Below are positions 23,236-62,370 of a stretch of 64,000 nucleotides of DNA, piece after piece. The notes beneath the pieces were generated by a model. It was given only the letters and a program-made list of their open reading frames with translations. It was not told the DNA's origin and made no database searches. Every line of letters starts with the position of its first letter. Position 1 is the first letter of the stretch. Source of the DNA: Desulfitobacterium dichloroeliminans LMG P-21439 (GTDB lineage Bacteria > Bacillota > Desulfitobacteriia > Desulfitobacteriales > Desulfitobacteriaceae); the NCBI RefSeq assembly GCF_000243135.2, contig NC_019903.1, positions 1,712,001-1,776,000 on the forward strand, given 5' to 3'. Position numbers and translations under genes: made by a program.

Positions 23236-23244
23236 GCTTTGACA

Positions 23245-23362
23245 CCTTTCTTAGCTTACGAGGTTAGTTGACGGATTCGGGCAAAAGTGTGAGCCCTACG
23301 CGTGCGCTACGCGATTCACCCCAAGAAATAGTCCCCCGTCCTAGGTTTATCTAGGTTCAGCT
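23245..23362 (-). promoter_or_regulatory. c-di-AMP riboswitch (ydaO/yuaA type)
   Basis: The leader of the NlpC/P60 gene on the minus strand carries the conserved blocks of this class: GGGGTGAATCGCG (complement of 23310-23322), AGGGCT before it in the pairing, and CCCGAATCCGTCAACTAAC continuing into CTCGTAAGC (complement of 23254-23281). The class turns genes off when c-di-AMP is high and commonly sits before cell-wall hydrolases and osmolyte or K+ transporters, which fits the gene behind it. Confidence 0.88.
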
Positions 23363-23390
23363 TTATTCTATGATTCACATATTATTATAT

Positions 23391-27405: not shown

Positions 27406-27481
27406 GGCCCATTGGTCAAGCGGCCTAAGACACCGCCCTTTCACGGCGGTAACACGGGTTCGAATCCCGTATGGGTCACCA
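27406..27481 (+). tRNA. tRNA-Glu (TTC)
   Basis: Complete cloverleaf, acceptor GGCCCAT/ATGGGTC, anticodon loop CTTTCAC, encoded CCA. First tRNA of the cluster. Confidence 0.97.
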
Positions 27482-27487
27482 AAATTA

Positions 27488-27563
<76 letters not shown>

Positions 27564-27569
27564 AAATAC

Positions 27570-27645
27570 GGCCCCGTGGTGTAGTGGTTAACATGCCTGC
27601 CTGTCACGCAGGAGATCGTCGGTTCAAGTCCGATCGGGGTCGCCA
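27570..27645 (+). tRNA. tRNA-Asp (GTC)
   Basis: Acceptor GGCCCCG/CGGGGTC, anticodon loop CTGTCAC, discriminator G, encoded CCA. Confidence 0.97.
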
Positions 27646-27674
27646 TTTTAATTTAATAGCGCGAAACACATAGT

Positions 27675-27758
27675 GGGTAGGTGGCCGAGTGGTTAAAGGC
27701 GGCAGACTGTAAATCTGTTCCGAAAGGTACGGTGGTTCGAATCCATCCCTGCCCACCA
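27675..27758 (+). tRNA. tRNA-Tyr (GTA)
   Basis: Acceptor GGGTAGG/CCTGCCC, anticodon loop CTGTAAA, long variable arm typical of bacterial tRNA-Tyr, encoded CCA. Confidence 0.95.
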
Positions 27759-27770
27759 CTAAAAAAACGT

Positions 27771-27845
<75 letters not shown>

Positions 27846-27884
27846 AAGGTTTTAAGTCAACGGAAGTTGATTTAATAGAAGCGT

Positions 27885-27959
27885 AGGGATGTCGCCAAGC
27901 GGTAAGGCACCAGACTTTGACTCTGGCATTCGTAGGTTCGAATCCTGCCATCCCTGCCA
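27885..27959 (+). tRNA. tRNA-Gln (TTG)
   Basis: Acceptor AGGGATG/CATCCCT, anticodon loop CTTTGAC, discriminator G, encoded CCA. Confidence 0.95.
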
Positions 27960-27963
27960 TTAT

Positions 27964-28039
27964 GAGCCATTAGCTCAGTCGGTAGAGCACCTGACTTTTA
28001 ATCAGGGTGTCCCGCGTTCGAGTCGCGGATGGCTCACCA
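27964..28039 (+). tRNA. tRNA-Lys (TTT)
   Basis: Acceptor GAGCCAT/ATGGCTC, anticodon loop CTTTTAA, encoded CCA. Confidence 0.97.
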
Positions 28040-28061
28040 TTTTCTAACAAGGCAATGAGAT

Positions 28062-28136
28062 GCGGGTGTAACTCAGTGGTAGAGTGTCACCTTGCCAAGG
28101 TGAAAGTCGCGAGTTCGAATCTCGTCACCCGCTCCA
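28062..28136 (+). tRNA. tRNA-Gly (GCC)
   Basis: Acceptor GCGGGTG/CACCCGC, anticodon loop TTGCCAA, encoded CCA. Confidence 0.97.
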
Positions 28137-28143
28137 AAACAAT

Positions 28144-28220
<77 letters not shown>

Positions 28221-28248
28221 TTTTAAATTGTATTAAACAATCCCTTAC

Positions 28249-28324
<76 letters not shown>

Positions 28325-28332
28325 TAAACAAT

Positions 28333-28417
28333 GCGGGAGTGGCGGAACTGGCAGACGCGCACGTTTGAGGGGCGTGTGGGTAACTCCATACGGGTTCAAG
28401 TCCCGTCTTCCGCACCA
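28333..28417 (+). tRNA. tRNA-Leu (GAG)
   Basis: Acceptor GCGGGAG with CTTCCGC (one G-U), anticodon loop TTGAGGG, long variable arm, encoded CCA. Confidence 0.94.
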
Positions 28418-28431
28418 TAAGTAAATATTGC

Positions 28432-28522
28432 GGAGAAGTACTCAAGTGGCTGAAGAGGACGGTTTGCTAAACCGTTAGAGTGGGTAACTGCTGCGAGGGT
28501 TCGAATCCCTCCTTCTCCGCCA
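28432..28522 (+). tRNA. tRNA-Ser (GCT)
   Basis: Acceptor GGAGAAG/CTTCTCC, anticodon GCT in TTGCTAA, long variable arm, encoded CCA. Last well-formed tRNA before a hairpin. Confidence 0.95.
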
Positions 28523-28540
28523 TCAATTTAGGTGAATATA

Positions 28541-28573
28541 GATGCCATGCGGTCAAACCCGCATGGCATCTGC
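28541..28573 (+). terminator. Hairpin after tRNA-Ser
   Basis: GATGCCATGCGG (28541-28552) and CCGCATGGCATC (28559-28570), perfect 12-bp arms, followed by TGCCTTTT. It would end the main tRNA transcript or aid its processing. Confidence 0.75.
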
Positions 28574-28646
28574 CTTTTCGGGGGTTTTTACCCTCGTTTT
28601 TTTGTCCCTCAGTTTCATAGATGACATCGAGCCATTTTGACATACT

Positions 28647-28662
28647 GGAGGGATTCGAACCC
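28647..28662 (-). other. Inverted tRNA T-arm fragment
   Basis: The minus strand reads GGGTTCGAATCCCTCC, identical to the T-arm of the tRNA-Ser gene at 28497-28512, but no acceptor or anticodon arm is attached. It looks like a relic of a recombination or an attachment-site fragment. Confidence 0.6.
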
Positions 28663-28682
28663 ACGTTTGGATACTGATATAT

Positions 28683-28758
28683 GGTCGTATAGCTCAGCTG
28701 GGAGAGCGCTTGAATGGCATTCAAGCGGTCAGCGGTTCGATCCCGCTTATCTCCACCA
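28683..28758 (+). tRNA. tRNA-Ala (GGC) with disrupted acceptor stem (possible pseudogene)
   Basis: From the D arm on it is a normal tRNA-Ala: AGCTCAGCTGGGAGAGC, anticodon GGC in ATGGCAT, T arm, acceptor 3' strand TATCTCC, A, CCA. But the 5' acceptor strand reads GGTCGTA, leaving positions 3-70 (T/T) and 4-69 (C/C) unpaired. The G3-U70 pair that AlaRS recognises is therefore lost. The 5' end seems to have been replaced at a junction near position 28690, next to the inverted T-arm fragment. It could be non-functional. Confidence 0.75.
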
Positions 28759-54108: not shown

Positions 54109-55803
54109 ATGAAACAGCGTCTCAGTGTTTTTCTTATACTGGTGCTGCTTTTTTCTTTCTTTCTTCCCGTTACAGCTGATGCCGAGGGCGACGGAAATAT
54201 CGACCACGGTGGTGGTGGAATGGGGAGCGGCAACGGCGAAAATTACTGGAATCCCGGAGATGAAGGGGTCAGAATCACTGTTGTTCGTGCAAGTGACCGG
54301 GCTGTCGTTACCACGCCAATAGATTTTACAGATAAGGCTCCTTCCAGTACAACAGCTCATTTCGGAAAAATCAGCAAGCTACAATACAACAGTGGAACAT
54401 CACTTACTCCGCATATGAATGGTTATACTTACAACACCCCAGGCATAGCCATGCCACACATTATAAGCTCCGGTAGCGGACAAGCAGATATTGATGAAAT
54501 TAAGAGATATTTCTGTTCTGAATACACTTTAATGCGTATATCCGATGTTACTGGTATGGATTATGGAGTGCTCATAAACGGTCAATATAAAATTCTTTTG
54601 GAACCCATCGCCTATATGACATTTCAGGGAGTCAAAATGGCCATGACCGCCACCGAGGCCGCGCTTTTTGACCAACAACTGAATGGCGGTCTGCGGAGCA
54701 AGATGGTTTCGCTTAGCCATAAAAACCTACCATTGGCAATGTTTCTTGAAACCCCGGATCTTGGTTATCCGGCATGGGACGGATCTACGACCACCGCTGC
54801 ATCAAACACCGATATTATTTCTTCCCTTGGACTTGGTATTGTGCGCTTCAATGAAGCAGAGCCGGAGCCTCCGGAGGTCACCACTTACGACTATGAGTAC
54901 CGGATCAATACAGAGGTCATCACCTCGGTGACTGTGAGAGGCGGTCAGGCAGATCCTTATCATCCCGTCACGGTGAGATTTACAATCGGCGGTCAGACAT
55001 ATACCGTAAGCGGTGTGTATTATCCAGAGGACGACAGCCAGCTGGTGTGGGTCCGCTGGACAACTCCGCCCACTCCACAGACCATGAATATTCATGTATC
55101 GGTATCGGGCGGCGGATCAGCGAGTCAAGGAACCATCACTGCAAAGATCGTGGACCTTTCCGGAAACGATCCACCCAATCCGGTGGCTGATGATCGCAAC
55201 AATTCCTACTCCAGTACCTCCGTACCCAATAAGCCGCAGAAAACCTCGTCCTCCTGGGGCGTGTGGCATCCAAGGTGGCATGCCTATTGGGTATGGCATG
55301 GAACTGAAGAAGATGGATACTGGTGTGACCATGGCTGGTGGGAATTCGACTGGTACGCTTACAATGCAAGCCTTTCATCTTCCATGAGCGTCGTTCCTGA
55401 TGCAAAAGCTCCAACAGCATCTGAAAAATTGATGAAAAGCGGTTATGGAATTAATCAAACAGTCACTGTAAATGTCAGTACAAACCAATCTTCGGCGGTA
55501 ACCGAAGCGCAGAACGCGGTAACCTATTTCCCTGAATACCAGTATAAAACGTATTGGCGGCTGCTGGAAAGAACAAGCCGGGGGTACAGTTCTAAATTTG
55601 AGTTCGCGTCCAATAAATACTCGACTTACAAACGCCGGACGCATTTCACCCCTATATGGATGCCGGATGGAAATTACACACCGTATACCTGGCTCGCCGA
55701 CTGCTGGACGCCCGCAGGAATGCTCAGTATTAACCTCACCGACTCGGTGACTATCCGGGGAAGCCTTTGGGATGACTGGTACATCGCACCGGTAAAGCCA
55801 TAA
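54109..55803 (+). CDS. Exported Trp-rich surface protein of the conjugative element
   Basis: 564 residues with AAGGAGG before the ATG. A cleavable signal peptide (cut probably after VTADA), a Gly-rich linker, a central beta-rich region and a Trp-rich segment (WGVWHPRWHAYWVWHGTEEDGYWC) near residue 385, ending YIAPVKP. Proteins with this ending recur in clostridial conjugative elements. Presumed mating-surface or pilus-associated component; a relic of a second copy's C-terminus lies at 56842. Confidence 0.75.
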   Translation: MKQRLSVFLILVLLFSFFLPVTADAEGDGNIDHGGGGMGSGNGENYWNPGDEGVRITVVRASDRAVVTTPIDFTDKAPSSTTAHFGKISKLQYNSGTSLTPHMNGYTYNTPGIAMPHIISSGSGQADIDEIKRYFCSEYTLMRISDVTGMDYGVLINGQYKILLEPIAYMTFQGVKMAMTATEAALFDQQLNGGLRSKMVSLSHKNLPLAMFLETPDLGYPAWDGSTTTAASNTDIISSLGLGIVRFNEAEPEPPEVTTYDYEYRINTEVITSVTVRGGQADPYHPVTVRFTIGGQTYTVSGVYYPEDDSQLVWVRWTTPPTPQTMNIHVSVSGGGSASQGTITAKIVDLSGNDPPNPVADDRNNSYSSTSVPNKPQKTSSSWGVWHPRWHAYWVWHGTEEDGYWCDHGWWEFDWYAYNASLSSSMSVVPDAKAPTASEKLMKSGYGINQTVTVNVSTNQSSAVTEAQNAVTYFPEYQYKTYWRLLERTSRGYSSKFEFASNKYSTYKRRTHFTPIWMPDGNYTPYTWLADCWTPAGMLSINLTDSVTIRGSLWDDWYIAPVKP

Positions 55804-55821
55804 GCAAAGAATCATTAAAAT

Positions 55822-55865
55822 AAAGAGCTGTTCTTTGAAGATTTCGAAGAGCAGCTCTTTATAAT
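55822..55865. terminator. Bidirectional terminator
   Basis: AAAGAGCTG (55822-55830) to CAGCTCTTT (55852-55860), with the interior also pairing along almost its whole length to give an ~18-bp stem. It ends the surface protein gene and the converging 55880 gene. Confidence 0.85.
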
Positions 55866-55879
55866 TTTTCCGGTGCTTT

Positions 55880-56560
55880 TTACTCCCCCTCAGATATCAG
55901 AGAAGGCTCATCTAGTAATAGTTGAAAAATCTGCTTGGAGCTTTCCCTGTCCCGATATGTGAGCGAGTACAGAAGATCGTTGGTAATCCCCTGAAGGAAA
56001 GCCGCCATTGCAGTAACAATCAGAAACCGCTGGCGGAACAGCAGGTTCAGGTTCTTCATTGCTTCCTCATCTCCAAGCACTTCAACAATTCGGTCATATA
56101 GCTTACGAAAATCACTGACATCTAAGACATCATGTGCATTCGACTCAATCCGCTCGTAATACTCCTCGCTCATGCTACCAAGACAGCGTTCAAAAAGAAC
56201 GGAGCAATATATAGAAACCTTGGTGGCACGTTCCTGAGATCTCAACGGATGTGCTTCGATGTACGCTTTGACTTCATTGTAAAATGGGTGGTCTGTGTTT
56301 TTGGAATCGCCACTGAGTATTCCGGAGCATAGGCCATTTAGGATTCCCCCAGTCTCAAAACCTTCCGATGCCGCCTCATAAGCCATTATCTCGTTCGACG
56401 TCTCAAAAAGATAGGATAGATACTTGTCCAGCAGATATCCCTGTTTACCTAAATTTGTCCGAATCTCGGCTGCCTGTTTGATGAATTCAATAAACAAATT
56501 TTTTAGATGTTTCACCGAGGCATCTCCAAGAAAACCGGACTCGTTTTCAAAAATGTTCAT
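55880..56560 (-). CDS. Hypothetical helical protein, 226 residues, opposite strand
   Basis: Starts at ATG 56560 with GGGAGA before it on the minus strand. All-helical; HPLRSQERATKVSIYCSVLFERCLG and FRQRFLIVTAMAAFLQGITND suggest a TetR-C-like or toxin-partner fold, but no HTH is seen. It interrupts the rightward gene order of the element and is flanked by a 15-bp direct repeat (55789-55803 and 56896-56910). Confidence 0.65.
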   Translation of the reverse strand: MNIFENESGFLGDASVKHLKNLFIEFIKQAAEIRTNLGKQGYLLDKYLSYLFETSNEIMAYEAASEGFETGGILNGLCSGILSGDSKNTDHPFYNEVKAYIEAHPLRSQERATKVSIYCSVLFERCLGSMSEEYYERIESNAHDVLDVSDFRKLYDRIVEVLGDEEAMKNLNLLFRQRFLIVTAMAAFLQGITNDLLYSLTYRDRESSKQIFQLLLDEPSLISEGE

Positions 56561-56701
56561 GTTTTCTCCCGACCTTTCTTATTTAGTCGGGAGGTTCCCC
56601 AATAGGCAAAAAAGCGTACACTAAGGCGGGCGGCTCAGCCGCCATGACCCCTTGCATACGCCTAAACTTATTGTAAAACACCATGAAAAATGGTAATATG
56701 G

Positions 56702-56798
56702 AAGCGTCATAGTGCCGTTTACGGTTGCGCGGGGTGGTTCGTTCACCTTTCGCAGGGCTGGTGTGTCGCAAGCGCACCAGTCTGCTATGACGTTTTTT
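56702..56798 (+). ncRNA. Candidate structured RNA with multi-branch fold
   Basis: AAGCGTCATAG (56702-56712) pairs with CTATGACGTTT (56785-56795) as an 11-bp closing stem, followed by more T. Inside are three stems: CCG/CGG (56715-56724), TGCG..GGTG/CACC..CGCA (56726-56754), and CTGGTG/CACCAG (56758-56780). A separate GGCGG/CCGCC hairpin lies at 56629-56643. The layout is cloverleaf-like but not a tRNA. I do not recognise the class. The strand is chosen from the T-run. Confidence 0.5.
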
Positions 56799-56841
56799 AG
56801 TTCGGGGAAACCCCCGTGGTAATAGTAACGCTCTGAAAGGA

Positions 56842-56910
56842 AAATATGTCAAGAGAGTACTTAGATATTACACTCCTATCTGGATGCCGGTCGTGCCGGT
56901 AAAGCCATAA
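56842..56910 (+). pseudogene. C-terminal relic of a second surface-protein copy
   Basis: The frame reads KYVKRVLRYYTPIWMPVVPVKP and a stop. It mirrors the end of the 54109 protein (KRRTHFTPIWMP ... APVKP), with the ~45 residues between WMP and PVKP deleted. No start or upstream body is present. Confidence 0.65.
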
Positions 56911-56929
56911 ATACAGAAAAAAGAAACGA

Positions 56930-61926: not shown

Positions 61927-62370
61927 TTATCTGACTATACTGCTCATTATAATTTGATAATCATTCCATAATCGCGCATCCTGCATGATATCATAATTTT
62001 CATAGATTCGGTAGTCTTCGAGGTGTTTGTAAAAAGAATTTTCCTTTCCGACATATACTCCTTCAGCATATTTTGAAAAGAACTCAAATTGATTTATGGT
62101 AATATCAATAATTGTACCATCATCCATTACTAGCCACGCGTGATTCGTAGTGTTATTAGGGTTATTATCACGATATATGCCATTTCCCTGTTTCGTATTA
62201 ATATCATATGTAGTAAATAGATAATACGCTAAAAGATCACATGAGTCATCGCAGCAACCACCTGGGAAATTACTCATTCTATCGCTACGATCAAACTTTC
62301 TATTATATTTTGCCTCCAATATTGCCGCACGAAAAGTTTCCGCAATATCATATATATCCTGATTTCTCAT
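61927..62370 (-). CDS. Inverted cargo gene with Cys-His-Asp layout
   Basis: 147 residues on the opposite strand, with GGAGAAAA before ATG 62370. Much more AT-rich than the transfer genes around it. CCDDSCDLLAYYL, NHAWLVMDDGTIIDIT give a Cys...His...Asp order as in transglutaminase- or papain-like enzymes. It sits between the two halves of the VirB4 module, like a phage moron. I cannot name a function; toxin, protease or host-modulating roles are possible. Confidence 0.65.
   Translation of the reverse strand: MRNQDIYDIAETFRAAILEAKYNRKFDRSDRMSNFPGGCCDDSCDLLAYYLFTTYDINTKQGNGIYRDNNPNNTTNHAWLVMDDGTIIDITINQFEFFSKYAEGVYVGKENSFYKHLEDYRIYENYDIMQDARLWNDYQIIMSSIVR

Follow-up and report, generated by a model that had tools for sequence, protein, structure and literature searches.

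The stretch of DNA analysed here, 64,000 nt from Desulfitobacterium dichloroeliminans and referred to below as the window, contains a small structured RNA that is well supported, on comparative sequence grounds, as an antisense RNA for a divergent gene encoding a 226-aa protein. In our preferred reading, to which we give a probability of roughly 0.7, this RNA represses the gene by attenuation within the mRNA leader combined with gating of the SD, gene and RNA form a cassette carried as cargo by a conjugative element, and the RNA has relatives at SymE genes. The first-pass annotation of the window had described a cloverleaf-like RNA fitting no class it recognised, and had named an antisense or antitoxin RNA for the gene at 55880, or a ribozyme, as possible roles; the leader, the attenuator, the gene promoter and the SymE relatives were absent from it. 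The features of the locus are collected in Table 1.

Table 1. Features of the antisense RNA locus in window coordinates
Feature	Position	Strand	Remark
Symmetrical terminator	55820..55862	both	between the 54109-55803 gene and the 226-aa gene
Gene for 226-aa all-helical protein	55880..56560	-	ORF; target of the antisense RNA
Untranslated leader, ~255 nt	56561..56817	-	complementary to the whole antisense RNA; extent deduced from promoter position
SD hairpin CTCCCGAC-loop-GTCGGGAG	56566..56593	-	holds the ribosome-binding site; -15.7 kcal/mol, z -3.6
Long-range helix, 3' strand GGGGAACCTCCCG	56588..56600	-	overlaps the anti-SD strand of the SD hairpin
Intrinsic terminator (attenuator) GGCGTATGCAAGG...CCTTAGTGTACGC-TTTTTT	56608..56662	-	-29.2 kcal/mol, z -3.0
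Antisense RNA promoter TTGTAA-N17-TAATAT	56671..56699	+	6 nt before the closing stem
Antisense RNA gene, ~94 nt	56706..56799	+	four-way junction P1-P4 ending in T-run; putative transcript ends
Helix P1	56706-56713/56784-56791	+	
Helix P2	56714-56717/56722-56725	+	
Helix P3	56726-56737/56743-56754	+	
Helix P4	56755-56766/56772-56783	+	
T-run, six T	56793-56798	+	3' end of the antisense RNA
Antiterminator (pre-emptor) segment A CCCCGCGCAAC	56724..56734	-	inside the antisense-covered region
Long-range helix, 5' strand CGGGGGTTTCCCC	56804..56816	-	leader start; RNAalifold prediction
226-aa gene promoter TTGACA-N17-GTTACT	56824..56852	-	beyond the RNA; invariant CAGAG inside N17
Decayed duplicate of the 54109-55803 gene tail	56853..56918	+	right cassette edge

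Fold, conservation and strand of the RNA

Read on the + strand, positions 56704-56799 fold with -49.5 kcal/mol (z -6.52; none of 200 shuffled sequences was equally stable), and the cloverleaf-like structure reported at first pass is a four-way junction in which four helices meet with zero unpaired bases. The 11-bp closing stem reported together with three internal stems and a T-run was also recovered by a separate repeat search, as inverted arms at 56702-56712 and 56785-56795 (11 nt, 91% complementary, 72 nt apart); 8 bp of this stem are kept in evolution, the outer 3-4 pairs of the window not being present in every copy. For the region 56702-56798 ARAGORN found no tRNA, and the Infernal search against Rfam that had been proposed as a check returned no family even at E up to 5, the ctRNA families included. 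tRNA and the Rfam classes were set aside as identities for lack of a covariance-model match, and no description of the RNA was found in the open-access literature.

The surrounding 290-nt region occurs a second time in the same genome (G000:C1:1378047-1378339, L002, 69% identity), and DNA searches found further copies in G054 (two), G010, G024 (two), G026 and G040; a protein search with the 226-aa gene added L012-L015, and G436 and G469 came later. Besides that of the window, 11 RNA copies keep the fold, ten of which adjoin the same divergent 226-aa gene, so that RNA and gene are neighbours at 11 loci (the window, the second copy in its genome, both copies in G054, that in G010, both in G024, that in G040, L013, L014 and L056). 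In G026 the RNA is retained and the gene lost; a deletion seems to have joined the leader to a methyltransferase gene, for which reason we rejected this gene-less copy as an insertion. Three copies of the gene (L012, L015 and L045) have no detectable RNA, indicating that the RNA is not indispensable.

A lack of covariation in homologues had been named at first pass as an outcome that could overturn the call, and the RNA passed this test. Across nine distinct sequences and 35 pairs, 98.4% of the cells hold standard pairs and 16 cells have changed on both sides, counts that reflect few independent events because the homologues belong to few lineages. Neither value was reached in any of 500 shuffles, and versions slid along the sequence were 34-53% paired. 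The loops are the most variable positions of the aligned copies, a pattern to be expected if RNA and target evolve in concert; the suggestion of a ribozyme found no support.

The same alignment identifies the strand. Among the pairs read on the + strand there are 71 G-U cells against 1 A-C, and since G-U becomes A-C on the opposite strand, the + strand RNA is the selected molecule. Such a bias would not arise if the conserved element were instead a riboswitch or ribozyme on the - strand, within the leader of the gene itself, or a DNA cruciform exploited by an enzyme, since these pairs would be lost both on the - strand and in DNA. The leader strand does fold as well, to -31.4 kcal/mol only (z -3.9), but with a promoter and T-run on the + strand and no Rfam match we regard these as the least probable of all the readings weighed here.

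Promoters of the RNA and of the gene

Comparative sequence analysis shows a promoter for each of the two predicted transcripts. All 12 copies with a 226-aa-type leader have a TTG...-N17-TAnnAT motif with exact 17-nt spacing, invariably 6 nt before the closing stem, and related promoters precede the RNAs of two SymE loci, L041 (TTGTAC-N17-TATAAT, 6 nt before the stem) and L055 (TTGAAA-N17-TATAAT, 8 nt). In the window the motif is a weak consensus match, and a promoter scan lists none there. Given its distance from the closing stem, transcription should start at the stem and finish in the T-run, and the product should be a free-standing small RNA.

The promoter of the gene is found past the RNA, 292-306 nt upstream of the ATG, and has TTGAC(A/T) and a spacer CAGAG that are invariant in 12 aligned loci; in the window its -10 element is poor, as is that of the antisense promoter. 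L015, whose protein is 34% identical, has TTGACA-AATCCTCTGTTCAGAGT-TTACAT (N17 with CAGAG) directly before the SD and has neither RNA nor terminator, a layout that supports this site as the promoter of the gene and the RNA module as sitting between promoter and SD. With the promoter beyond the RNA, the leader runs through the complement of the entire RNA, and about 95 nt of it are complementary; the antisense role proposed at first pass is thereby supported. At the sequence level, then, the antisense RNA gene with its own promoter is present inside the leader of its target. CAGAG, invariant between the -35 and -10 elements in all loci and even in L015, is perhaps an operator for some regulator.

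This arrangement also bears on a reading in which the small RNA acts in trans on targets elsewhere and overlaps the leader only incidentally. Its high stability and its own promoter and terminator would suit such a role, but it almost always lies opposite the leader of the 226-aa gene or of a SymE gene, and the loops, which would carry the seeds, are its most variable part; we consider a trans-acting role very improbable.

Leader structures and the proposed switch

The leader contains conserved structures of its own. RNAalifold, given ten leaders, returned a terminator and a long-range helix, both with 100% of cells paired and with covariation in 12 copies. The terminator pairs have 23 G-U cells against 0 A-C on the - strand, and those of the helix 22 against 0. 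These biases are opposite to that of the antisense RNA, which indicates that each strand has its own selected RNA structures. A Rho-independent terminator is thus found 5' of the start codon in the leader, and in every RNA-bearing copy, L041 included, a strong terminator with a U-run lies between the antisense region and the SD. The core of the SD hairpin is kept in 12 of 12 copies, and this hairpin and the long-range helix are mutually exclusive. An alternative leader hairpin, CACTATGA x TCATGGTG, was rejected since the alignment keeps it in one clade only.

The candidate antiterminator, segment A, has the consensus CCC(C/T)GC(G/A)CAAC. In partition-function models of the nascent leader, truncated where the 5' arm of the terminator ends, pairing of this arm with segment A is predicted in most copies with p of about 0.4-0.96. 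Segment A is the best duplex site for the arm in 11 of 13 leaders, another site competing in L002 and L010. The pairing is short and bulged, with an energy that 5-14% of shuffled leaders reach; other pairings compete with it in the window copy, L006 and L007, and it is not favoured in the models of L006, L007 and L055.

We infer from these elements transcription of both strands, binding of the RNA to the leader, an alternation between segment A and the terminator, and repression of the gene. The RNA would act as a cis-encoded countertranscript on an mRNA that would start beyond it and read through its complement. When the antisense RNA is absent, segment A (56734-56724) would pair with the 5' arm of the terminator and transcription would continue; after read-through, pairing between the leader start and the anti-SD strand could expose the ribosome-binding site. 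Once bound, the antisense RNA would cover segment A, the terminator would form and transcription would stop before the gene, while the SD would also stay locked.

The same cis-encoded RNA could act mainly on translation or mRNA stability, through SD access or RNase III, the terminator being secondary. Conservation of both the SD hairpin and the covarying long-range helix that would open it is consistent with this, and the case may be likened to ColIb-P9 Inc. It may also be likened to E. coli SymR, which affects the protein level more than the mRNA level (PMC1891008). The strong terminator found between antisense region and SD in all copies with the RNA argues the other way; we judge a mainly translational action unlikely, and attenuation the likeliest mechanism for this antisense RNA.

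Related RNAs at SymE genes

A covariance-model search of 83 genomes of the class gave one match outside the 226-aa family at E below 0.001, L041 in G003 (E 2e-6). The strand opposite this RNA encodes the leader of a SymE toxin gene (PF08845 at 44 bits, cut-off 29), and five of 74 genomes of the order carry such a gene. Every part of the module is present at L041 with different letters: a four-way junction of -52.1 kcal/mol, a leader terminator AGCGCATG..CATGCGC-TTTTT (i.e. GCGCATGTG..TGCATGCGC-TTTTT) and, at the same place as segment A and the terminator arm, the pair CCTACAC x GTGTAGG, which differs in its letters yet remains complementary (p about 0.6-0.8 in the nascent-leader model). On its sequence, L041 can be taken as an independent replication of the antisense-attenuator layout in a diverged copy. 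The Rfam symR model scores 16.6 bits on the same strand and at the same place, which is far below its threshold (cut-off 61).

A similar RNA, weaker as a match (19.8 bits, E 0.0003 unfiltered) and probably antisense to the SymE leader, occurs at another SymE locus, L055 in G010; the switch between segment A and terminator is not predicted there. Ten further SymE matches across the phylum, some of them in short loci or below the cut-off, have no such RNA, and neither have the SymE loci L051, L052 and L054. Hence only a subset of SymE uses the module, and we rejected a general link between SymE and the RNA.

Two other matches of the covariance model, L049 and L050, are weak and were set aside as unrelated, L049 resembling a thiamine riboswitch by eye. 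Next to L050 (23.8 bits) is a small ORF resembling a membrane toxin, MTVYEALTFAIAFATLMVLVTTKKK, and the L050 hairpin GGGCTGGCGTGTCGCAAGCACGTCAGTCC is very similar to helix P4 in the window.

The cassette, its conjugative element and the 226-aa protein

The gene-RNA cassette is cargo of a chromosomal conjugative element with TrbL, DUF3852 (TrbC-like) and VirB4-type genes. In the window it sits at the end of the 54109-55803 gene, whose tail is duplicated on both cassette sides (55784-55811 and 56891-56918, 28 nt, 82%), confirming the first-pass placement of the RNA between the inverted gene and a decayed gene tail. L030 in G051 has a gene of the 54109-55803 type followed directly by DUF3852, with no cassette at that place; the 226-aa gene survives in G051 as a broken remnant. 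The second element of the window's own genome (L016) carries a diverged cassette between a 202-aa gene and VirB4, a position that looks like a cargo hotspot, and in L015 the cassette is near TrbL. We rejected a reading of the cassette as a mobile element, the apparent inverted repeats at the ends of the conserved block being the two strands of the long-range leader helix.

Several other features of these elements were noted. At the position of the L016 cassette the window has a 147-aa reverse-strand gene (61927-62370, a PHROG 26734 match). In G054 an insert of some 2.7 kb (L017, 4769-7520) splits the DUF3852 gene of a near-identical element. A Fic-family gene stands on the other side of the RNA cassette in G024 (L020, 4010-4645), and in the near-identical L022 a 63-aa ORF precedes the Fic-family gene. 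Elsewhere the window holds a c-di-AMP riboswitch (23238-23372, 94 bits) and, at 27406-28758, 13 tRNA genes in an array.

The relatives of the 226-aa protein are 34-96% identical; none was found in phage, plasmid and viral collections. No Pfam, NCBIfam, PHROG or PADLOC family scores above its cut-off, no Rep (replication initiator) family of Pfam, NCBIfam or PHROGs matches, and PF08845 (SymE, AbrB-fold) does not match it either, being found among the RNA-bearing loci at L041 and L055 only. The AF2 model is all helix (pLDDT 84); a PDB sequence search gave no match, Foldseek returned nothing at E 0.001 from either PDB or BFVD, and a second structural comparison gave an uninformative Z under 8 for a helical bundle.

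The antitoxin role mentioned at first pass is possible on sequence, since two diverged copies of the RNA lie upstream of SymE toxin genes. The corresponding explanation, compatible with the attenuation reading, is a type I toxin-antitoxin pair in which a toxic 226-aa protein and its RNA antitoxin would maintain the conjugative element. The predicted RNA is antisense to the gene's mRNA, as in type I systems, and the related modules opposite SymE leaders, the cassette's status as conjugative cargo and the RNA kept in G026 after loss of the gene all fit; against it stand the lack of a toxin family match for the protein and the gene copies without RNA. Proteins of 226 aa are long for type I toxins. 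We hold this explanation only tentatively. A wider proposal, that a portable antisense-attenuator module new to Rfam and shared by the unrelated 226-aa and SymE genes constitutes a new family of attenuation-plus-SD-gated type I toxin-antitoxin systems, appears a little more doubtful still. A type III system was rejected, as there are no RNA repeats and the orientation is divergent.

Comparison with known systems

The best-known cases of antisense attenuation are those of plasmid replication genes. Here the same logic would apply to a gene on a chromosomal conjugative element and, in a related form, to SymE toxin genes. We believe that the covariance model obtained from this find will help to identify further members and that the locus permits a direct test of the protein's role. 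In addition, the two diverged copies in one genome provide a natural test of antisense specificity.

In ColIb-P9 Inc/repZ a hairpin sequesters the SD until a long-range pairing opens it, and the antisense RNA prevents this opening, which takes the form of a pseudoknot coupled to a leader peptide. In contrast, no pseudoknot coupled to a leader peptide was identified at the window locus.

The layout is closest in kind to pT181 RNAI/repC and pIP501 RNAIII/repR, with which it shares an antisense promoter in a long leader, a similar RNA size and a terminator before the start codon. Plasmids of the pIP501 type have a leader of about 320 nt with the antisense promoter inside and a poly-T inverted repeat just 5' of the start, and in pT181, whose antisense RNA measures 87 nt, a pre-emptor segment competes for the terminator's 5' arm (PMC5703833), as is predicted here for segment A. 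Unlike in these systems, the target, which resides on a chromosomal conjugative element, matches no replication protein in any family search, the RNA folds compactly as a four-way junction, and the long-range helix would also gate the SD.

The second comparison is with SymE/SymR of E. coli. Control of SymE genes by small RNAs outside enterobacteria had previously been suggested only from nucleotide conservation upstream of some of them (Kawano et al., PMC1891008), and at L041, and probably at L055, a SymE leader has a diverged copy of our RNA on its opposite strand. In E. coli the start of SymR lies within the symE ORF and repression is chiefly at the level of translation, whereas the RNA described here would start upstream of the ORF, has an attenuator added and, in the window, faces a gene that is not SymE.
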